64,000 bases of DNA from NCBI RefSeq assembly GCF_029478665.1, contig NZ_JARPQB010000005.1, positions 1 to 64,000 on the forward strand, in the 5' to 3' direction. Positions 3 to 8,664 of this stretch are shown here, in pieces; within the stretch, counting starts at the first letter, position 1; each line of letters begins with the position of its first letter. Both the position numbers and the translations under genes were made by a program. This DNA is from Pseudomonas entomophila (lineage in GTDB: Bacteria > Pseudomonadota > Gammaproteobacteria > Pseudomonadales > Pseudomonadaceae). The notes beneath the pieces are model-generated. The model was not told the DNA's origin and did no database searches. It worked only from the letters and a program-made list of their open reading frames with translations.

Positions 3-1568
3 GTGCGCCATCAGGGCAATAAGCTGATGCAGACCCAGGCCTGGGACCCGGCCGGGCGCTTGCAGGAGCAACTGCTGGGCAGCCATGACGGCCAGTCCAC
101 GCTGCTCAAGCGTCAGTACCGCTACGACGCTGCCGGCCAGCTGACCAATATCCACGACAGCCGTCGGGGGCCGTTGGAGTACCAATACGATCCCGTCGGC
201 CGCCTGCTTAAGGCCACCAGCCGCTTGGGCGTGGAAACCTTCGCCTTCGACCCGGCCGGTAACCTGCTGGACCAGAAAACCCAGGAACTGAACCGCCCGC
301 TGGAAGCCGATCCGCGTCGCAACAAACTGATGGACAACCTGCTGCGCGAATACGCCGGGACCCACTACCGCTACGACGAACGCGGCAACCTGATCCACCG
401 CCTGCACAACGGTGCCCATGCGCACTTCACCTGGGACTTGTTCGACCGGCTAACGGGTTACAACGACGACAAGCTCAAGGTCGACTACAGCTACGACGCC
501 CTGGGTCGTCGTCTGCACAAACACTCGGTGGCGCACTTCTGGGACCGCCCCGAAGCGGGAACTGGCTGGAATCAACTGCAACGGGCCAAGCGCCAGCGTG
601 AACTCGGCTGCGGTTTCACCCTGTTTGGTTGGGATGGCGACACCCTGGCCTGGGAAAGCTCACCGCCGCGTGATGAGGGTGACACCGGGCGCACCGTGCA
701 TTACCTGTACGAGCCGGGCAGCTTCGTACCGGTCGCCCAGGCCCTGCGCAAAAGCCCGATCCGTCTGCACAAGCAACCAGACTGGAGTCAGCGCGAATAC
801 GACTTCGATCAGGATCCACTGTGGCACACCGAGGTAAAACCACAGGCGTTCGAGGCGATTGCCTGGTACCAGTGCGACCACCTTGGCACGCCGATGGAGC
901 TGACCGACGAACAGGGTAATGTCGCTTGGGCCGGGCAGTACAAGGCCTGGGGTGAGGTCCGTGAAGAACGCTCGGCGTGGGCCAAACAACACGGCCTGGG
1001 CAACCCAATTCGCTTCCAGGGTCAGTACCACGACCATGAGACAGGGCTGCACTACAACCGATATCGTTATTACGATAATCACAGTGGCCGTTTCATCTGT
1101 AAGGATCCTATAAGCTACGCAGGTGGGCTTAACCTCTTCACGTATGCACCTAATGCAATACAGTGGATTGATCCGAGAGGACTTACTAAGAAAAAAGGCA
1201 GTAAAAATTTCGGCTCTGCTGAAGAGGCTGCTGACGCTGCCTTGGCTTCGGGTAGGGAGAATGGTGCAGCAGCAGAGTTAAGAATCAACGGTCGGGTCTA
1301 CACTGGCGTAAGCAGTGAAGTGGTCGATCATTCGCCAGTAGTAACCGGGGCGCTTATGGGAACGCCATTGGAAGAACAGGCACCTTGGCATGGCGGGTGT
1401 GCCGAAATCGTGTGTTTAGATAAAGCATTAGAGGATGGTGTCGACCCTGCAGGTGGTAAGGCCAAGGCCGTAAATATCGGAAAGTCGGGGAAGGGACATG
1501 GAACCCACAAGCCTGCATGCAAAAGCTGTCGTGATGTAATGAAGCATTTAGGAGTGGAATGGGAATGA
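3..1568 (+). CDS. Rhs-family polymorphic toxin, 3' part, with deaminase-fold C-terminal tip
   Basis: This is the C-terminal 521 residues of an Rhs protein; the 5' end lies outside the window. YD repeats are visible (for example YRYDAAGQL and HYRYDERGN), followed by the conserved Rhs core end with GLHYNRYRYYD and the DPRGL boundary at residues 390-394. The variable tip (about 396-521) has a C-A-E motif (C466, E468) and PACKSC (C506, C509), the layout of a zinc-dependent cytidine-deaminase fold of the YwqJ/Pput_2613 type. I infer a nucleic-acid or nucleotide deaminase toxin delivered to competitors, probably by type VI secretion. Codon use becomes AT-rich from about position 1085, as expected where tips are exchanged by recombination. 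Its stop overlaps the next gene, a likely immunity gene. The exact deaminase subfamily is uncertain. Confidence 0.88.
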   Translation: MRHQGNKLMQTQAWDPAGRLQEQLLGSHDGQSTLLKRQYRYDAAGQLTNIHDSRRGPLEYQYDPVGRLLKATSRLGVETFAFDPAGNLLDQKTQELNRPLEADPRRNKLMDNLLREYAGTHYRYDERGNLIHRLHNGAHAHFTWDLFDRLTGYNDDKLKVDYSYDALGRRLHKHSVAHFWDRPEAGTGWNQLQRAKRQRELGCGFTLFGWDGDTLAWESSPPRDEGDTGRTVHYLYEPGSFVPVAQALRKSPIRLHKQPDWSQREYDFDQDPLWHTEVKPQAFEAIAWYQCDHLGTPMELTDEQGNVAWAGQYKAWGEVREERSAWAKQHGLGNPIRFQGQYHDHETGLHYNRYRYYDNHSGRFICKDPISYAGGLNLFTYAPNAIQWIDPRGLTKKKGSKNFGSAEEAADAALASGRENGAAAELRINGRVYTGVSSEVVDHSPVVTGALMGTPLEEQAPWHGGCAEIVCLDKALEDGVDPAGGKAKAVNIGKSGKGHGTHKPACKSCRDVMKHLGVEWE

Positions 1569-1990
1569 GCTTTGCTTACGGTGAGATTGTATGGCCTGAA
1601 GATGGCCGAGAGGCAAATATATTGCTAAGAGACTTTATGCTCAAAGCCCTCAGAGCAATTGGCTATAAGTTTCCTGAAGTGTTGCCGGATCCAATGGGTC
1701 TAGCTGGCAAGTATGTTTCATGTGAAATCGGGCAGCTAGAATGCACAGAGTTGGCTGCAAAATGGAGGGGGCAAATTGCAGGCGTGGCGGGAGTTAGAGA
1801 TTTCCATAGTAAAGATGCACTGAGCGCCCGTTTGGCTATGCTATTGCTTAGTATTGATGAGTCTGACGATCAAGAGATGATGTCAGAGAAATTAAGTTGG
1901 TTTATGGAGTTTCTTCAATGTGGTGGTGAGAACTACAGGTTGGCGGATGAAATTCTAGTAAAACATTTTATCAGCTACGTAGAGAAGTGA
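1565..1990 (+). CDS. Probable cognate immunity protein, VWP family copy A
   Basis: A 141-residue soluble protein whose start overlaps the toxin stop in an ATGA junction. An ATG at 1559 is also possible, but the start at 1565 matches the N-terminus and the length of the paralogue at 3307-3732 (MSFAYGEIVWP against MKFAIGFIVWP). Shared landmarks are the I/VVWP motif near residue 9, an ARLA..LL helix in the middle and an E.LSWF segment followed by KHF near the end. Direct coupling to the toxin makes it the likely antidote to the deaminase tip. No catalytic motif or membrane segment is visible. I do not recognise a named family; the immunity role rests on position and paralogy. Confidence 0.7.
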   Translation: MSFAYGEIVWPEDGREANILLRDFMLKALRAIGYKFPEVLPDPMGLAGKYVSCEIGQLECTELAAKWRGQIAGVAGVRDFHSKDALSARLAMLLLSIDESDDQEMMSEKLSWFMEFLQCGGENYRLADEILVKHFISYVEK

Positions 1991-2007
1991 TTCCGCAGTG
2001 AAGTACT

Positions 2008-2070
2008 AGAAAAATGGGGCGAGTTTATTTCCACTGCTCTATAGCGGGTGAAATAAATGCGTCCTTTTTT
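2008..2070 (+). repeat. Immunity-array palindrome, copy 1
   Basis: Imperfect inverted repeat. The left arm reads AAAATGGGGCGAGTTTATTT and the right arm AAATAAATGCGTCC followed by six T, with a short loop. It lies 18 bp after the first immunity gene. It is a divergent relative of the copies at 2601, 3204, 3738 and 4289. The T-rich right end could also act as a terminator. Confidence 0.7.
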
Positions 2071-2146
2071 TGCGGAACCTGATCGCGGATTGACTAATAA
2101 GTTATGCAGAAGTTGTGGCTTCATAATGCTTTAAGGTTCAAGTGAA

Positions 2147-2566
2147 ATGAAATCGGAAAAAGTAGTGTGGCCTGATAGTTTGGTCGATTCTGTTTTTTTA
2201 TACCGGCGTTTTATTTTTGATCTTCTGGTGGAAGGTGGCGTCGATTATAGTAGCTTTCTTTATAATCCGCTGAGCATGTTAATTGGGGATGCTGGGAGTG
2301 CATCTGGTGAGAAGTCTCGAGAAGAGGCAGTTTTTTGGTGGTGGAAATATGTCGATGATAATGGGTATATCAGAGATCTTGACTCGGAGATGTCAATCAG
2401 GGCCAGATTTGCAATTGAGTTGCTAACAGCCGTGCCTAAAAGCGTTGAGGATTTTTATGAGCTGAGGGAGCGATTTTCCTGGGTTCTACAATTCTCAGGT
2501 AAGCTGGGTATTTCTGATGATTTATTGTCTGAAGTTGTGGCGAAGCATTTTTTAATTGGTGGGTAA
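2147..2566 (+). CDS. Putative immunity protein, VWP family copy B
   Basis: A 139-residue protein of the same family as the gene next to the toxin. The N-terminus (MKSEKVVWP) keeps the VVWP motif, the middle has ARFAIELL and the end has SWVLQF and AKHF. It is more divergent than the copy at 3307, with a distinctive WWWKYV segment in the middle. It is probably a former cognate antidote to another Rhs tip, now kept as an orphan. It stands between two copies of the island palindrome. AT-rich codon use fits the island. Function is inferred from paralogy and position only. Confidence 0.6.
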   Translation: MKSEKVVWPDSLVDSVFLYRRFIFDLLVEGGVDYSSFLYNPLSMLIGDAGSASGEKSREEAVFWWWKYVDDNGYIRDLDSEMSIRARFAIELLTAVPKSVEDFYELRERFSWVLQFSGKLGISDDLLSEVVAKHFLIGG

Positions 2567-2600
2567 GTTGATTTAAAGTGCAGATATTCGATTGATGTAG

Positions 2601-2665
2601 AGTAAAAGGGGATGGGTCTATTTTTTTGCTGCTCTAAAATAGAGAAAATAGACCCGTCCCCTTTC
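2601..2665 (+). repeat. Immunity-array palindrome, copy 2
   Basis: The best-paired copy. AAAGGGGATGGGTCTATTTT on the left is matched by AAAATAGACCCGTCCCCTTT on the right, with one central mismatch in the 20-bp arms and a loop of about 20 bases. It lies 35 bp after copy B and 66 bp before the next gene. The transcript would form a strong hairpin. Confidence 0.85.
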
Positions 2666-2730
2666 CTAAGTTTTTGTGCGCCATGCTCGGTTGTAATTAA
2701 AAGACTTGGGATTAAGGATGGAGTAGAGTA

Positions 2731-3192
2731 ATGCTTGATCAATATTATTATTCAAAGGCTGACGAACTTGAAGAGCTGGCAATAGATAAGCGAGTGTCTG
2801 CAAGCCATTTGGCTGCTTGGTATGCTGATTTTCTTATTGTCATGCATGACCGGCTTATGGTGCTCACGCCAAATCATATTGTCATGAATGACGTGAGGGC
2901 TCGCATTGAAGCTCTTCGTTTAGCTGGAGTGGATAATATTGATAAAGAGCAGCGCGATAGTTCGCTGGTTATGCTTTGGCGAGTGCACGATACGAAAAAG
3001 GCTGAGGATGAAGTACTGGCGGCATATGCTAGGGCAGCAATATGTTGCTTTGCTGGTGATAAAGAATGGGAAGAAAGTAATGCGGATAGTGAAACGCCTA
3101 TATACTATCTTTTTCTTTACTTGGTTGTTTTTGGTTCGGAGGCTTTAGATAGGTTCTATGATTTTCTGAAAAATAAGATTGCTTGCTTTTGA
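2731..3192 (+). CDS. Putative orphan immunity protein, second family, copy 1
   Basis: A 153-residue, helix-rich acidic protein with a GGAG ribosome-binding site in front of the ATG. Its second half (EDEVLAAYARAAICCFAGD, then a Trp and a TP-containing segment) aligns with VDDVLSSFARCCVFCANND in the protein at 4592-5062, so the two are paralogues. No catalytic motif, signal peptide or clear membrane span is visible. I do not recognise a named family. Its place between copies of the island palindrome and among likely immunity genes suggests an antidote to another toxin tip. Confidence 0.5.
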   Translation: MLDQYYYSKADELEELAIDKRVSASHLAAWYADFLIVMHDRLMVLTPNHIVMNDVRARIEALRLAGVDNIDKEQRDSSLVMLWRVHDTKKAEDEVLAAYARAAICCFAGDKEWEESNADSETPIYYLFLYLVVFGSEALDRFYDFLKNKIACF

Positions 3193-3203
3193 TTATTGCT
3201 AGG

Positions 3204-3280
3204 GAGTAAAAGGGGACGAGTAAAAGGGGGCAGATTTATTTTCCTGTTTTTGAGTGGTGAAAATAAATCTGCCTCCTTTC
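3204..3280 (+). repeat. Immunity-array palindrome, copy 3, with duplicated left arm
   Basis: The left arm occurs twice (AGTAAAAGGGGACG, then AGTAAAAGGGGGCAGATTTA), then a short loop, then AAAATAAATCTGCCTCCTTT. The inner arm CAGATTTATTTT pairs with AAAATAAATCTG. The doubled arm suggests one element inserted into, or recombined with, another. Confidence 0.85.
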
Positions 3281-3306
3281 TGCGTCCTTCACTTCAGGAT
3301 TGAGTC

Positions 3307-3732
3307 ATGAAATTTGCTATAGGGTTTATCGTTTGGCCGTCGGGAGCTAGAGCCGCTAATTTGCTGTTGAAGTGTTTTATGCTTAAGGCCTTGGAACTAT
3401 CGAGGATCAATTTGTCAGATGGCGAGATTGATCCTGCAGAAGTGGTGCGTGGCTATGTCGCTGGAGATGTCTCTGCGGCTCATTGTAAGAAGCTGGCAGC
3501 AGATTGGCTCGCTAGACTGGATTCGGTTGATAGGGTTCGCGAGTTTCAAGATAAAAATATTTTGCTAGTTCGTCTGGCTAACTCATTGCTTGATGTTGAT
3601 GAGGGAGGGGTGATGAGTTATGCGGATGAATTGGGGTGGTTTATTGAGCTGCTAGGTTTTTATGGGGTTGATTATTACGGGGCAGTCAGGCCTATGATGG
3701 TCGAATATTTTTCTCCTTATTTGGGTGAGTAG
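3307..3732 (+). CDS. Putative immunity protein, VWP family copy C
   Basis: A 141-residue protein with the same length and order of motifs as the antidote next to the toxin: FIVWPSGARAANLLL at the N-terminus, LVRLANSLL in the middle, and ELGWFIELL near the end. An AGGA ribosome-binding site lies 6 bases before the ATG. It is flanked on both sides by the island palindrome, 26 bp upstream and 6 bp downstream, so gene plus palindrome looks like one cassette. It is probably an orphan antidote to a variant of the deaminase tip. This is inference from sequence likeness. Confidence 0.6.
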   Translation: MKFAIGFIVWPSGARAANLLLKCFMLKALELSRINLSDGEIDPAEVVRGYVAGDVSAAHCKKLAADWLARLDSVDRVREFQDKNILLVRLANSLLDVDEGGVMSYADELGWFIELLGFYGVDYYGAVRPMMVEYFSPYLGE

Positions 3733-3737
3733 TCTTG

Positions 3738-3815
3738 GAAAAAGGGGGCGAGTAAAAGGGGCAGATTTACTTTTACTACTCCAAATCAGAGAAAATAAAT
3801 CTGCTTCATTCTTCC
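3738..3815 (+). repeat. Immunity-array palindrome, copy 4, with duplicated left arm
   Basis: Starts only 6 bp after the stop of the preceding gene. The left arm is again doubled (AAAAAGGGGGCG, then AGTAAAAGGGGCAGATTTA). The right arm AAAATAAATCTGCTTCATT is intact at its inner part and degraded at its outer part. Confidence 0.8.
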
Positions 3816-3851
3816 TCTCATGGATACTATAGTTTTCCTTAAGGTATATTT

Positions 3852-4241
3852 ATGTGGCTAAAGTATGCATTGAATAAAATTAAGGTTGACCACATGTTTG
3901 GTGATATTTTAGATATGGAGGGTGCCGAGCTAGTCGGCTTTAAATTTCATGACGGCTCTTCAGTTTATTTCTCGTTCTTGATAGTAGGGGTTCCAGATAA
4001 GTGTCCCGAGAAATGGAAGGGGCATGGGTATAATGCCATGAGTGTCACGTTGAATTTTGGAGGGGTGAAAGAGTTTAGGTCGAATCTGACCAGGGTAAAT
4101 TTTTGCTGCGTTCCAATAATTAATAGCTCGCCAGACGGTGCCTCTATTTCAATTGAGGCGCCTGATGCGTCGATTTTTTGTGAGTCTGAGTATGTGAGTA
4201 TAGATGGGGTGACGCCATATATTGATATTAGATGGGATTGA
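3852..4241 (+). CDS. Imm50-like immunity protein
   Basis: A 129-residue beta-rich protein. The N-terminal run around FGDILDMEGAELVGFKFHD, the central alternating hydrophobic strands, and the end (VDG-type turn, then TPYIDIRW) resemble the Imm50 family of polymorphic-toxin antidotes. AAGG lies 7 bases before the ATG. It sits between two copies of the island palindrome. A profile search against Imm50 would settle the family; I give it as probable, not certain. Confidence 0.5.
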   Translation: MWLKYALNKIKVDHMFGDILDMEGAELVGFKFHDGSSVYFSFLIVGVPDKCPEKWKGHGYNAMSVTLNFGGVKEFRSNLTRVNFCCVPIINSSPDGASISIEAPDASIFCESEYVSIDGVTPYIDIRWD

Positions 4242-4288
4242 TTTGTGTGTAAAAAATATTTGAACGGGCGGGTTACTGGAGGTTGGCT

Positions 4289-4360
4289 AGTAAAAAATGG
4301 GTGTTTGTTTTTCCTCTTTTTAGTGGGAGAAATACAGTAAGAGGGGACGGATTTATTTGT
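4289..4360 (+). repeat. Immunity-array palindrome, copy 5 (degenerate)
   Basis: A left-arm-like start (AGTAAAAAATGGGTGTTTG) is followed by GGGAGAAATA and then another left-arm-like run, GTAAGAGGGGACGGATTTA. It seems to be a fusion of two partial elements. It is the last clear copy; no further copy is visible between the later genes of the island. Confidence 0.6.
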
Positions 4361-4380
4361 TTTGTGTGCTTGAAAGCAAG

Positions 4381-4515
4381 ATGGAGGCATTCGAGGATTA
4401 TGCAATGGAAGAGCTTAATGAGTTTGCCAGTGCAGAAGATGCCTTTGATTACTTTTGGCTAAAACAGGTTGATGTTGAAAAGTTTTCTTCTATCAAGGGG
4501 GTATTGCCTTTTTAG
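4381..4515 (+). CDS. Small ORF, NifW-like N-terminal fragment
   Basis: A 44-codon reading frame (MEAFEDYAMEELNEFASAED at the start). The ELNEFASAEDAFDYF segment resembles the N-terminus of NifW-type proteins, which carry an L-SAEDF-FFG-type pattern. The frame stops after only 44 residues, about half the usual NifW length, so it is probably a truncated remnant rather than a working gene. GTG at 4366 is an alternative start in the same frame. No strong ribosome-binding site is seen. The rest of the stretch from 4242 to 4591 holds only the degenerate palindrome. Confidence 0.35.
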   Translation: MEAFEDYAMEELNEFASAEDAFDYFWLKQVDVEKFSSIKGVLPF

Positions 4516-4591
4516 GTGGCGGAATAAGGGTGTTAGGTAGGTCTTGTGGCCATGTTGCGGAAAAGCGTAATGTTAGAAATGGAGTTTTACT

Positions 4592-5062
4592 ATGCTTAGG
4601 GCGCTAGATCAGTTGATGGTTGATAGGTTTGAGGAAGATTTTTTAAGTTCCGATCTGACTATTTATGATCTTTCTTCCTGTTTGGCAGGCTATTTAAAAT
4701 GTATGTTGGTCTCGGGGTATGTCGATTTTCCTGATGGTGAGGTGAAACGCCAACTTGTTAGCCTCTTGGGCTCTGCTGAGCGGAAAGAATGGCCCGCGAC
4801 TGAGACCCCTGAAAAAGAGAAGGCCAGAAAATATTTCTGGTTTACAGTGAATTTGTACAAAGGTGTGGATGATGTTTTATCGTCTTTCGCCAGGTGCTGT
4901 GTTTTTTGCGCGAACAATGATGAGGATTGGGCGGATCAATTGTTAGGCGAAGACACACCTTTTCTGCTGTATGCTGATGAGTTGGATAGAATGCGGGGTG
5001 GGGAAACAAAGGAGTTAGTGGCGTACTTTAGAGCGGCTTTGAGCTTGCCCGCTCCAATGTGA
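4592..5062 (+). CDS. Putative orphan immunity protein, second family, copy 2
   Basis: A 156-residue acidic, mostly helical protein with GGAG 7 bases before the ATG. It shares with the protein at 2731-3192 the segment DDVLSSFARCCVFCANNDED followed by W and a DTP turn, so both belong to one family. No enzyme motif, signal peptide or membrane span is visible. It is followed 21 bp later by another small gene and is probably cotranscribed with it. An antidote role is inferred from the neighbourhood. Confidence 0.5.
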   Translation: MLRALDQLMVDRFEEDFLSSDLTIYDLSSCLAGYLKCMLVSGYVDFPDGEVKRQLVSLLGSAERKEWPATETPEKEKARKYFWFTVNLYKGVDDVLSSFARCCVFCANNDEDWADQLLGEDTPFLLYADELDRMRGGETKELVAYFRAALSLPAPM

Positions 5063-5083
5063 AGTGAGTGGAAGCTTTAGCTT

Positions 5084-5569
5084 GTGACTGAAGCGCAGTA
5101 CCTCTGCCTGATTATGATTGACAGGTTTGTCGCCAAGTGGGGATATATGTATTCCCCAGTGTTATTGAGTTGCCATGATATTAAAGATTGGAATGACGCT
5201 TACGCTGTTCAATGGATGAAAAAGGAAGATCTTGTGGATGAGTTTACCGAGATAGAAATAAGGCTGAATCAGGGTGAGATCAATGCCTTGAAAAAAGCCT
5301 TGCGGTATTTGAAGTTTGAGTGCGAAGAGACAGGGTCTTTGATCTTTTCGGGTAGTCCTTTGATTAATTCGGCCTTTGATAAGTTGATAGCGGGTAGTTA
5401 TTTGGCTGAGTGTGAGTTGAGGTTCTATGCTGAAGGAAATTCATATACTGAGGAATGCATGTTGGATAAGTTAAGGCGAAATTGGGAGTTTGAGGGGCGA
5501 GGTGAATTCGAGGACGGTGTTGACTCCGAGTATTTTAGAGAGTGTATTCGCCCTTATAGGAAATTATGA
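5084..5569 (+). CDS. Hypothetical protein of the immunity island
   Basis: A 161-residue acidic protein with no family I recognise. The GTG start at 5084 is preceded by GGAAG 9 bases upstream; an ATG at 5114 is the alternative. It contains a SGSPLINSAFDKLI segment and a charged C-terminal part. The gene is AT-rich like its neighbours and begins 21 bp after the preceding gene, so cotranscription is likely. An immunity role is possible but rests on position alone. Confidence 0.5.
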   Translation: MTEAQYLCLIMIDRFVAKWGYMYSPVLLSCHDIKDWNDAYAVQWMKKEDLVDEFTEIEIRLNQGEINALKKALRYLKFECEETGSLIFSGSPLINSAFDKLIAGSYLAECELRFYAEGNSYTEECMLDKLRRNWEFEGRGEFEDGVDSEYFRECIRPYRKL

Positions 5570-5594
5570 AATTGCTTTGGTTGAGGGACCGATA

Positions 5595-5936
5595 GTGAAC
5601 AATACGCTCAGGAACAGCCCTGATAGTCTTCAGGATGAGGTATGCAAGCGGTATGGTGTGACGCCAACCGCTCCCGAAGCGCGAGTGGCTGTCGCGCTTG
5701 GCACGCTGAATGGATCTCCAATCTATGGCACTCGTATCCGAGGTGCGGAAGAGGGTGGGGTGAGTTGGTTTTTCCACTGCGGGGAATTTTCGGAGGCGGA
5801 CGATTTCTACCAGGCACTTCATACCTATCACCTGAAAGAGGATTTGCCAGAAGTCGTCAAGTATCTTTACCTTCCTGAAGGTGCTTATTTTATTATTGAC
5901 AGAAATGGATACGAAGACGTCTGGTTTGATGAGTAA
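5595..5936 (+). CDS. Immunity-like protein, possibly Imm33/DUF2185-type
   Basis: A 113-residue protein. The frame is open from 5490, but GTG at 5595 is favoured because GAGGGA lies 6 bases upstream and this start avoids most of the overlap with the previous gene. The segment GVSWFFHCGEFSEADDFYQA, the LPEV..YLYLPEGAYFIIDR run and the GYEDVWFDE end resemble short single-domain proteins found beside Rhs and other contact toxins. I compare it with the Imm33/DUF2185 group with low certainty. GC content is slightly higher than in the preceding genes. Confidence 0.5.
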   Translation: MNNTLRNSPDSLQDEVCKRYGVTPTAPEARVAVALGTLNGSPIYGTRIRGAEEGGVSWFFHCGEFSEADDFYQALHTYHLKEDLPEVVKYLYLPEGAYFIIDRNGYEDVWFDE

Positions 5937-6060
5937 CCTCGCTTGGCGCGTGAGGGTGCAATATAATCCGTCCTGCTGTGGAGTGGGTAGCACCTTGGTT
6001 TGGGAAAGCGCTGCCCTATAAAGTAATGGATATCTATTTAAGGGATTGTAGAAGCATTTT

Positions 6061-6543
6061 ATGGAAAAGGTAGAAGCATTTTCGGTCATCAAGGTTTTTG
6101 TCTCGGACCGAGGCCCTGTCTATGAGGAGCTTCCTGCGCTTTGGAAAGGCGAGGGTGTTTATGAGCTTTTGTCCTCCCCCGGTTTGGCGCTGAATCTCGC
6201 AAAAGGCGATTTGATTAACATCGAGGACCCCAACGCCCCAGCCGTGGTGATAAAAAGGGGTGGGAATTTTTGCATCAATTTGTATGCGGATCATATTGAT
6301 GCGGATACGCTGTCAACGCTGGAGTCACAGGTAAACGTTCTGTTGAACGGTACGCTTGATGGTGTGTATAGGGGGAACCTGGCGTTCAGTGTTCCAGCGA
6401 GAAGTGGAAAGGAGAACATAAGGGAGGTATTTAACCGCTTCAAAGAAGCTACCGGGATTGAGTGGTACTATTCAAATATATATAAAAATTATAATGACCT
6501 TGATGATGACACGCTGCTGGATTGGTGGCTTGAAGCTGATTGA
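6061..6543 (+). CDS. DUF4265-like immunity-island protein
   Basis: A 160-residue protein. Its N-terminal half (an EELPALW run, then LALNLAKGDLINIED and a V.KRGGNFCINLY strand) resembles DUF4265 proteins, which are often found among toxin-immunity genes. The C-terminal part ends with an acidic DLDDDTLLDWW segment. A 13-bp direct repeat (GTAGAAGCATTTT) occurs at 6048-6060 and again at 6070-6082, on either side of the start codon. Function unknown; an immunity role is inferred. Confidence 0.5.
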   Translation: MEKVEAFSVIKVFVSDRGPVYEELPALWKGEGVYELLSSPGLALNLAKGDLINIEDPNAPAVVIKRGGNFCINLYADHIDADTLSTLESQVNVLLNGTLDGVYRGNLAFSVPARSGKENIREVFNRFKEATGIEWYYSNIYKNYNDLDDDTLLDWWLEAD

Positions 6544-6619
6544 CTAGACCTTGGGTGCTCACAGGGTCGTACGTTTATATCGATGTGGTTTGACAAGCAG
6601 TTGTAGTTCGTTAGTGTTC

Positions 6620-6761
6620 ATGAGTTTTTGTATTGGGTGATATTGTCTGGCCGGTAGAAGGGCGGGAATCAAACGCTTTTTGATCGCGCATGCAGGCAGA
6701 GATTGAGCCTGTCTTGGGGGCGGAAAACTTTGGCCGATTCGTTGATTATTTTTATGGCTGA
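6620..6761 (+). pseudogene. Decayed fourth copy of the VWP immunity family
   Basis: ATG at 6620 begins MSFCIG and is then out of frame. The adjacent frame continues LGDIVWPVEGRESNAF to a stop at 6681, matching SFAYGEIVWPEDGREANILL of the antidote next to the toxin. A short frame at 6690-6761 (ending GRFVDYFYG) may be the remains of the C-terminus, though that part is weak. This shows a frameshift plus a large internal deletion in a former cassette. Confidence 0.6.
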
Positions 6762-6802
6762 AAGCCGTGCGGGTCGCACGGGCCGGTGACAAGGGGATCT
6801 GA

Positions 6803-7066
6803 ATGTCTAAATTGACCCACACCCAGGTATCGGGATGTGAAGTCGGTTCTTCTGAATCGCTGAGGCTGGATGAGGTAACCCTCCACGCATCACCTGAGGC
6901 CTTCAACGCCCTTGGGACGTTCTTGATCGAGGCTGCGCAGCGGATGGCTGTGGAAGGGCTGGAGCATCTGCATTGGCAGGATGTGATGGATGACTTCGAC
7001 CCTGACCATCATGTGGACTTCATCTTGGTCAACGCCACCGTCACGGTTCCCACCGCCACCGACTGA
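6803..7066 (+). CDS. Imm32-like immunity protein
   Basis: An 87-residue protein with AAGGGGA just before the ATG. The pattern LRLDEVTLHASPEAFNALG, then FLIEAAQRM, then LHWQDVMDDFDPDHHVDFIL matches the short Imm32 family (a beta strand, a helix carrying FL..AA..M, and a C-terminal D-P/S-H-D strand). GC content rises here towards the chromosomal level, so this gene and the next may form an older or separate addition. No cognate toxin is visible in the window. Confidence 0.6.
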   Translation: MSKLTHTQVSGCEVGSSESLRLDEVTLHASPEAFNALGTFLIEAAQRMAVEGLEHLHWQDVMDDFDPDHHVDFILVNATVTVPTATD

Positions 7067-7132
7067 GCCGCAGATTTCACAGGAAGGCCAGACGCATGTA
7101 TCCGCTGCCAGGTGATGTTCCAGGAGGATGAG

Positions 7133-7723
7133 ATGTTCAAGGAGTTGGTGTTCACGCAGGAAGCTCCGACGGAAAACGATGCTTACGCCGGTGGCGGCGC
7201 TTACTTGCCCACGACCCTGGGTTGGCCGACGTCCAGTGATGGCGAGCCATTGATGCATCTGCTGGCGTTGCCGAGCCATTGGTTGGGTGACGCCGCTGCC
7301 AGGTGCTGGATATCGATCTTCATCCCGGTACAGACGGAGGGTGTGCCTAACTACCGAGCACTTCGTTATCAGGATGGGCGTTCACAGGCGGTGGTGTTGA
7401 GGTACGCAAGGCACGTTGAACTGCGCCATGGGGCCGATGCAGGGGGCGACCCTCCCGGCAAAGTCGTGCTCGTGCAAGTCGATGAGTGTGATGACGACGA
7501 GAACCTGGCTTCCAAGGTGGGTGGCGTCGATGCCTGGCTGCAGGCCCCGCTCGAACTACCGGGCGCTTATAGAAGGCTTTCGCTGTATGGCGGTGATCTG
7601 GACATGTCCTTGCCTGGGCACAAAGGCCTGCTCTGCGATGGCATGGGGTATCTGCTGTTGAGCGATGCATTCGTTGCTGGCGATACCGATGGCGTCAACG
7701 GCTTCTTCCTGCAACTTGGCTAG
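7133..7723 (+). CDS. DUF1963 (YwqG-like) protein
   Basis: A 196-residue protein. Start ATG at 7133 is chosen because AGGAGG lies 5 bases upstream; GTG 7112 would place that site inside the gene. LGWPTSSDGEPLMHLLALPS near the N-terminus and the late DGMGYLLLSD and GFFLQLG strands are typical of DUF1963, where a GYLLLLQ-type strand follows the glycine-rich part. Members occur in toxin-immunity neighbourhoods and elsewhere; the biochemical role is not known. Last same-strand gene of the island. Confidence 0.7.
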   Translation: MFKELVFTQEAPTENDAYAGGGAYLPTTLGWPTSSDGEPLMHLLALPSHWLGDAAARCWISIFIPVQTEGVPNYRALRYQDGRSQAVVLRYARHVELRHGADAGGDPPGKVVLVQVDECDDDENLASKVGGVDAWLQAPLELPGAYRRLSLYGGDLDMSLPGHKGLLCDGMGYLLLSDAFVAGDTDGVNGFFLQLG

Positions 7724-7803: not shown

Positions 7804-8073
7804 TCAGTGAGTCATTCCCAGCTCGGCGTCATCCATCAGCGCCTTGGCCAGTGCGCTCAGGTAATACGAGGCCCAGAGCAGTTGCGGCTTTTCTTCCATG
7901 ATCCCGGTGATGGTCAGGTCGCGCACGCAGCCCATCAGTTCCGAGGCCTGTTCACGGGCGTGCTGGCAGGGGATGCCGGGTTCGATGCAGAACAATGGGA
8001 TGGTCTGGCCTTCGCCTTGGTAGAGCTTGGTTTTGCCTGTGGTGGTGTTGGGGGTGGTTTCGTCTGTTGTCAT
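7804..8073 (-). CDS. DUF3077 family protein
   Basis: An 89-residue protein starting MTTDETTPNTTTG, with GGGAGA before the ATG. The body (LFCIEPGIPCQHAREQASEL, then a helix, then MEEKPQLLWASYYLSALAKA) is the DUF3077 pattern of small Pseudomonas proteins of unknown role. It is convergent with the immunity island and marks the return to host-type composition. A longer in-frame extension upstream reads through a REP sequence and is not believed. Confidence 0.75.
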   Translation of the reverse strand: MTTDETTPNTTTGKTKLYQGEGQTIPLFCIEPGIPCQHAREQASELMGCVRDLTITGIMEEKPQLLWASYYLSALAKALMDDAELGMTH

Positions 8074-8115
8074 TGTTTTGTCTCCCTGGATTTTTCGGGG
8101 CCTGGGCGGGCCCTT

Positions 8116-8185
8116 TCGCCAGCAAGGCTGGCTCCTACAGGTGAAACGCAGCCCTTGGTAGGAAGCCGGCTTGCCGGCGAACAGG
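8116..8185 (+). repeat. REP pair
   Basis: Two REP sequences in opposite orientation: GCCAGCAAGGCTGGCTCCTA followed by GTAGGAAGCCGGCTTGCCGG. Just upstream of the DUF3077 gene. The rest of 8074-8965 holds a short minus-strand open run ending at about 8240 (ending ESLRVLLE), which may be a gene remnant, and the long inverted repeat listed next; I see no intact gene. Confidence 0.8.
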
Positions 8186-8664
8186 GCCGGCAAGGGCTTA
8201 GTGCAGCGCACCGGCATCTGTACCTGGCTCAACGCTCATTCGAGCAGCACGCGCAGCGATTCGACTTCGTGCATCGACGCCGTCATCAGGATCGTGGCGG
8301 GGGACTTGGGCTGGGCCAGTCCCGCCTGCTGTCAAACAAGAAGGCGGCAGCTGTACATGGGTTGACAGACCGGTAGGCATCCCAAAACCCGGCGCACACG
8401 AAGTGCCCCACGCACAGCCGCCATAAGGGCAAGCCATGGGAATGAACCTAGGTCGGCCTGTCAAAACCGGTCGCTGATTTCGCAGTGACCGGCCGAGACT
8501 AGAGGCCATCTGGGAACACCGCAATGGCTCGGAGGGGGGCGGGAGTATGTTTGGGAAATGGACTACAAGAAATCGGCTTAACCTGATTTTTTTTGTGGTT
8601 CGTGGAGGAGATCGGCGTTGTGGGCGAGAGGGCCAGCCACAGAATCTTCAGCGCCTATCAGATC

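Follow-up and report, generated by a model that had tools for sequence, protein, structure and literature searches.

The first 64 kb of contig C82 (NZ_JARPQB010000005.1) from a Pseudomonas entomophila draft genome (5.84 Mb, 136 contigs), hereafter the window, raise the question why a single rhs toxin gene is followed by a long row of immunity-like genes. The contig start cuts the rhs gene, of which only the 3' part, ending in a YwqJ-like deaminase tip, is present. Behind this tip lie 11 small open reading frames (ORFs), all on the plus strand (1559-7723) and named A to E, G to J, L and M, together with two remnants, F and K (Table 1). An initial annotation had described about ten same-strand genes and two remnants, which is correct except for the number of genes. 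Most likely, the array is what remains after toxin tips were replaced repeatedly at a single rhs locus. We base this reading on sequence comparison, since the tip ends before genes B and C resemble toxins whose neighbors in other strains are genes of these same kinds.

Upstream of B, we found the decayed 3' end of a tip of the type carried by the related strain UFMG81, and upstream of C the terminal ∼20 codons of another tip type, here called the second deaminase-type tip. The stump before C is in frame and its stop overlaps the start of C; its exact start was set by eye, as the alignment starts at 2651 inside a palindromic element (see below). A possible third stump, before G, scored weakly. 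The original statement that no second toxin tip is present is correct for intact tips, but stumps are left before B, C, and perhaps G. In UFMG81 the roles are swapped. Window positions 2073-3206 and UFMG81 positions 6060-7199 are 81% identical, but there the tip is the partner of B, and A' (96% identity to A) is located downstream as an orphan. Before A' lies what is left of the window's tip after an internal deletion (92% identity over 61 nucleotides (nt); 90% over 479 nt including the gene). Furthermore, rhs-core pieces lie upstream of the UFMG81 copies of G and E, and additional stumps precede C' and the third family II gene of UFMG81 as well as two family I genes of genome G189, each with a score reached by 0 of 400 shuffles. 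Such stumps, together with the swapped UFMG81 locus, are the footprint expected of tip replacement in which the old immunity gene is kept. They also support the proposal, already made in the annotation, that the genes are antidotes against tips lost by recombination. On the genome's own contig C51, a 23-residue stump resembling the current C51 tip separates an element from the small gene that follows (L022, 2607-2675); we interpret this stump as a probable second displacement footprint in the same genome.

We then asked which toxins accompany relatives of the array genes elsewhere. A total of 298 Pseudomonas genomes were searched with family I (A, B, D), family II (C, G), H, and J; 20 stretches were fetched and mapped, and five without mapped matches were checked by tblastn. 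The families are rare and patchy, being held by 7 (family I), 6 (family II), 5 (H), and 19 (J) genomes; for J, part of 28 places was fetched. Overall, for 8 of the 11 genes (A, B, C, D, G, H, I, J), relatives immediately follow an Rhs tip in another Pseudomonas genome. Family I genes directly follow YwqJ-type tips in G189 (L082/L222), G182 (L205), and G011 (L206), the G189 gene being a 51% relative of A whose tip is of the window's kind, and B' of UFMG81 (L021) directly follows a different YwqJ-like tip. Family II genes are found directly 3' of the second deaminase-type tip in G016 (L209, with a 4-bp overlap) and G181 (L208); the tips of L209 and L208 gave weak YwqJ profile matches (4.6e-05 and 1.9e-06). 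Relatives of H directly follow HYD1-type tips in G188 (L214; PF15633, 8.1e-06), G268 (L212), and G024 (L213). Those of J follow one type of tip in G016 (L209), G189 (L215), and G036 (L219), which has no Pfam match and appears HNH-like by eye. One relative of I is located directly 3' of an Rhs tip in G011 (L206), and others adjoin J genes (L204, L215, L216, L217, L218, L221). These neighborhoods are compatible with the suggestion that the genes act against toxins of rivals. Homologs that never occur beside toxin tips, the case named in the annotation as speaking against an immunity role, were not what we observed, although some have no Rhs gene in view.

Eleven tips are readable among the rhs loci of this genome. 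When the relatives' tips were compared with these loci and the window (tblastn, E ≤ 1e-3), only the window's YwqJ tip was found, by its three relatives; no second deaminase, HYD1, or J-type tip was detected in the genome's rhs loci at this threshold. The second deaminase tip and the L215 tip also gave no match across the whole genome, in a search without a positive control. Judged from these comparisons, the array genes beyond A are probably orphans, for which no partner tip was found in this genome's Rhs loci, and they are predicted to be antidotes, while A is the predicted immunity gene of the current YwqJ-like tip.

Table 1. Features of the rhs locus and the array in the window
Feature	Coordinates	Strand	Evidence or remark
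rhs gene, 3' part	3..1568	+	PF03527 1.9e-18, PF14431 8e-06
rhs tip, YwqJ-like deaminase	1185-1565	+	Tip scanned alone: PF14431 1.5e-07
Gene A, family I	1559..1990	+	Overlaps rhs stop
Palindromic element 1	2009..2072	+	71.1 bits, covariance model
Stump before B, decayed 3' end of UFMG81-type tip	2073..2146	+	Score 67; 0/400 shuffles as high
Gene B, family I, predicted orphan	2147..2566	+	75% to gene directly behind UFMG81 tip
Palindromic element 2	2602..2667	+	76.2 bits, covariance model
Stump before C, end of second deaminase-type tip	about 2669..2731	+	Score 64; 0/400 shuffles
Gene C, family II, predicted orphan	2731..3192	+	Family II relatives directly behind second deaminase-type tip (L209, L208)
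Palindromic element 3	3220..3282	+	74.6 bits, covariance model
Gene D, family I, predicted orphan	3307..3732	+	41% relatives directly behind YwqJ-type tips (L205, L206)
Palindromic element 4	3751..3814	+	66.3 bits, covariance model
Gene E, Imm50	3852..4241	+	PF15594 4.6e-19
Half element, left arm only	4336..4358	+	Repeat family D1
Remnant F	4357..4515	+	ORF; weak match only among fetched loci
Possible stump before G, second deaminase-type tip	4539..4586	+	Score 34; 5/400 shuffles, weak
Gene G, family II	4592..5062	+	Family alignment with gene C
Gene H, without named family	5084..5569	+	Relatives directly behind Tox-ART-HYD1-type Rhs tips (L214, L212, L213)
Gene I, Imm33-like	5595..5936	+	PF24719 6.7e-32
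Gene J, DUF4265	6061..6543	+	PF14085 1.4e-15
Remnant K of family I (A-type) gene, 16 residues	6627..6674	+	Score reached by 0/400 shuffles
Gene L, Imm32	6803..7066	+	PF15566 2.3e-08
Gene M, DUF1963-like, weak	7133..7723	+	0.22, sub-threshold; rhs arrays L023 and L204 contain relatives (32% and 28%, respectively)

At the level of single genes, the expectation of at least five immunity-like families, two of them in several copies, was confirmed: families I and II are accompanied by Imm50, Imm33-like, DUF4265, and Imm32 proteins. A shares 37% identity with D and 25% with B, and C and G are 17% alike (alignment A5). Families I and II have no match in Pfam or NCBIfam, and no family was assigned to H by profile search; the NCBIfam scan covered the array genes other than L and M. 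E and L were placed by their match to named immunity families and M by its presence in two other Rhs arrays. The G+C content is about 40-50% from A to J, 52-60% in L and M, and at least 60% outside the array. A role as ordinary metabolic genes is ruled out by the immunity-family matches and the Rhs-tip neighborhoods of the relatives. The array is followed by a DUF3077 gene on the minus strand (7804-8232). Similar frames end the arrays of C51 (L022, about 5085-5690) and UFMG81 (L021, 12086-12355), so the island may have a preferred border.

How could such an array grow? An incoming cassette of tip plus immunity gene would cut away the older tip and push the older immunity gene downstream, where the retained gene is predicted to remain protective against the old toxin when kin or rivals still deploy it. 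Incoming cassettes presumably recombine via rhs-core homology on their 5' side, and many of them may have carried or gained a palindromic element on the 3' side. Palindromes of ∼60 nt, overlooked in the annotation, occupy each of the four gaps that separate genes A, B, C, D, and E, with a half copy after E. A 17-mer of the arm occurs six times in the window with up to three mismatches, compared to 0.06 expected occurrences. With a covariance model built from 13 copies, by which 150 of 449 first-look candidates from the whole genome were scored, we located 17 distinct element places on six contigs. Fourteen are located downstream of a visible rhs 3' end (C82, C51, C57, C44, C58). The other three are on C135, a contig of 3.6 kb on which the sole trace of rhs is a 22-residue core match (E 0.002). 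The better-scoring strand was the gene strand for all 17 elements, of which only five had not been used in model building. In a genus sample analyzed with strict filters and 26 scored candidates per genome, elements were matched at 1e-6 in 85 of 199 genomes. The gaps that contain elements are co-directional in 88 cases, convergent in 26, and divergent in 6, so that positions behind genes are favored. With respect to an RNA structure on the gene strand, for 7 of 18 predicted pairs one or more of 15 sequences had both bases changed with pairing kept, and G-U versus A-C arm mismatches occurred at 43:30 (p 0.16). The terminator scan, whose loop limit of 8 excludes the elements, named none of them. 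Short repeated starts such as AAAAGGGGAC are common at the ends of elements, together with duplications of a few flanking bases, and resemble stacked part-copies; examples are window positions 3204-3242 and 3735-3772 and loci L054, L063, and L080.

The identity of the palindromes was suggested by loci in which the element adjoins a gene. In L089, L090, and L096, this is a Y1-transposase gene, matching PF01797 in two cases. A search with the L096 transposase protein gave 51 matches, 30 of which were returned as loci. All 24 close relatives (63-100% identity, query included) are bracketed by inverted element arms within 300 nt, compared to none of the six distant ones (41-43%). Elements are present in 35 of 41 genomes with the transposase gene versus 50 of 158 without it (Fisher p 5e-10). 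Furthermore, GGGGACAG, found in many arms, fits the GGGGWSAS-type motif described for the ends of TIRYT transposons (PMC3733652; PMC6006769), and the variant GGGGACGG is off at one position. Because of this bracketing, co-occurrence, and motif fit, the palindromes are best explained as gene-less copies of a TIRYT-type (Y1 transposase) transposon. In TIRYT transposons, or TIRtrons, a Y1 gene likewise lies between inverted ends that also occur as gene-less repeats (Di Nocera 2013, PMC3733652; subclass 2.1, PMC6006769). The C-terminal helix-turn-helix of subclass 2.1 was not detected in two transposases searched against Pfam (E up to 1). Unlike in TIRtrons, this genome has elements but no match to the element transposase at 1e-40. 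Repetitive extragenic palindromes of the genome's own Y1 transposases were ruled out, as three such genes have other, GTAG-type flanks. The repeats on either side of these own transposases (L034, L035; contigs C44, C88) are of the GTAGGAGCGGATTCATCCGCG and GTAGGAGCCAGC types and resemble repeats reported for P. entomophila L48 (PMC2817692).

Do these elements take part in cassette exchange? We examined 55 element loci, taken from the top of the match list and in part chosen for several matches rather than at random, and arbitrary control places in the same genomes. A Rhs/CdiA-type gene matched by a query from another locus was found in 25 of the 55 loci versus 0 of 20 controls (p 6.8e-5). Wider queries (Rhs, CdiA-type, L107) gave 26 of 55, and 25 without self-matches; the L107 protein, however, is a subtilase/RTX protein and not a polymorphic toxin according to Pfam, while the other five CdiA-type queries scanned contain haemagglutinin repeats and, in most cases, also a pretoxin or toxin domain. 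A confinement of the elements to Rhs loci, nearly true in this genome, does not hold in the genus, where the first 40 loci gave six with one Rhs query set. Eight 5'-truncated toxin fragments start at most 10 nt from a palindrome arm: those before B and C in the window, L022:2549, L086:10095, L089:7136, L093:8137, L106:8288, and L115:9550. The L089 fragment, a short one with a similar piece across the element, could be a repeat. Eight other toxin fragments within 700 nt begin 26 to 584 nt from the element. In the opposite sense, with 128 elements examined, 14 toxin pieces approach an element. Three of them are short or doubtful (two in L089, one in L256), a single piece (L083) is cut 7 nt away, and ten reach the toxin C-terminal end 324-571 nt before the element, which leaves space for about one gene. 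Fragment edges are therefore one-sided, which suggests that the cuts in older toxins were made at element edges. One gene separates the toxin from the first element for 19 of 30 ORFs counted as toxins, a set that includes the false toxin of L107 and a miscount in L023; 14 more have no element within 5 kb. In the CdiA-type loci L115, L096, and L104, whole orphan modules of toxin fragment and next gene stand between two elements (e.g., L115, 8063-9608).

The elements could nevertheless be passive insertions that favor A+T-rich gaps behind genes and play no part in cassette exchange, and by a small margin we consider this the better bet. The gap types agree with it, and 30 of the 55 element loci contain no Rhs/CdiA gene. 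UFMG81 has one detected element and several displacement stumps free of elements, which argues against a necessary role. Breakpoints do not decide for such a role either: 20 of 208 ends lie within 25 bp of an element compared to 11.7 expected uniformly, but for intergenic ends alone the value is 17 of 66 versus 13.5 (z 1.1), which is not significant. Passive insertion does not readily account for the location of 14 of the 17 own elements behind a visible rhs end, nor for eight toxin fragments starting within 10 nt of an element versus a single toxin cut as closely while running into one. The opposite idea, that the elements serve as docking joints, is speculative and in our view unlikely. In this scheme, cassettes would enter Rhs/CdiA loci by homology at the toxin end and an element at the opposite end; the old toxin would be removed and its antidote kept when element edges are joined or deleted, leading to an integron-like stacking.

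With regard to the genes themselves, the orphans may be neutral leftovers that have no protective effect and have not yet decayed. Two gene remnants (F and K) within the array would agree with this, as would the lack of a promoter-like excess across the array region (5 sites found versus 8.8 expected). However, 11 frames are open while the adjoining stumps are broken, and we regard neutrality as rather unlikely. Somewhat less probable still is that the genes were gathered singly as a defensive bank, i.e., by acquired interbacterial defence, and that their toxins were never carried at this locus. Several observations nevertheless weigh against tip replacement and towards such single arrivals. 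Shuffle-tested alignments revealed no stump before seven genes (D, H, J, E, I, L, M) and only the weak one before G; none was detected before G' of UFMG81 or the family I gene of L208 either, and genes without a stump could have arrived alone. No Rhs gene is present in the fetched stretch near relatives of family I (L207), family II (L210, L211), and J (L218, L220, L221, L223), including J-type plus I-type pairs in L218 and L221. Gene L has no toxin neighbor in the loci examined, and M is linked by array membership only. Single gathering is at odds with the stumps before B and C, the mirror stump before A' in UFMG81, and the rhs-core pieces before the UFMG81 copies of G and E. That a few immunity genes were chiefly duplicated in place and then diverged, as the three family I genes, two family II genes, and one family I remnant might suggest, is very improbable, since A and B each match a different tip in different strains, each with its own tip's stump, since family I copies share only 25-37% and family II copies 17%, and since unrelated families cannot come from duplication.

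Tip replacement as the source of such arrays has precedents. In the type VI secretion system of Vibrio cholerae, a new pair replaces the effector and the old immunity gene is kept; orphan immunity genes follow the active pair and resemble pairs of other strains, as they do here, and no evidence for an integrase in the process is reported in the accessible text (Kirchberger 2017, PMC5361080). Our locus differs in that the delivery gene is rhs, that stumps of lost tips are readable, that a mirror-image strain exists, and that transposon palindromes occupy the joints. Strings of immunity genes behind polymorphic toxins have been described as remnants of tip exchange, and polyimmunity loci likewise combine many unrelated immunity families in one orientation; as far as the accessible text goes, these loci are never interrupted by toxin cassettes (Zhang 2012, PMC3482391). 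Here, stumps and elements lie between the genes, and the spacers between A, B, C, D, and E, occupied by the elements, measure about 114-165 nt and exceed the small gaps of polyimmunity loci, whose genes are likely transcribed together. As expected of an array built by effector displacement, relatives are paired with effectors elsewhere (8 of 11), traces of the effector remain (B, C), and there is a reciprocal strain (UFMG81). The orphan toxin/immunity modules linked to rhs and cdi loci of Escherichia coli, reportedly the subject of work by Poole in 2011, are said to keep their toxin sequence, in contrast to our array, where most of it is gone. In view of the studies by Zhang (2012) and Kirchberger (2017), this kind of array is therefore already known, and the layout as such, which the annotation had thought possibly new, is not. 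For TIRYT repeats, a link to toxins and immunity is not described in the accessible text of PMC3733652, in which the words 'toxin' and 'Rhs' do not occur, but such a link is seen here. In the open-licence literature, searched mostly at listing level, we found no TIRYT repeats tied to toxin or immunity arrays, and 16-mers of the element had no match in it. New is the association of mobile TIRYT-type palindromes with a displacement array, and the footprints within the array are unusually direct.

The locus can be read as a record of toxins that were probably present earlier in the lineage, and a related strain provides its mirror image. It offers testable toxin-antidote pairs for families without annotation, namely family I, family II, H, and DUF4265. 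Finally, a mobile palindrome at several of the joints bears on how cassettes stack without downstream homology, a step that earlier work attributed to rare illegitimate recombination.

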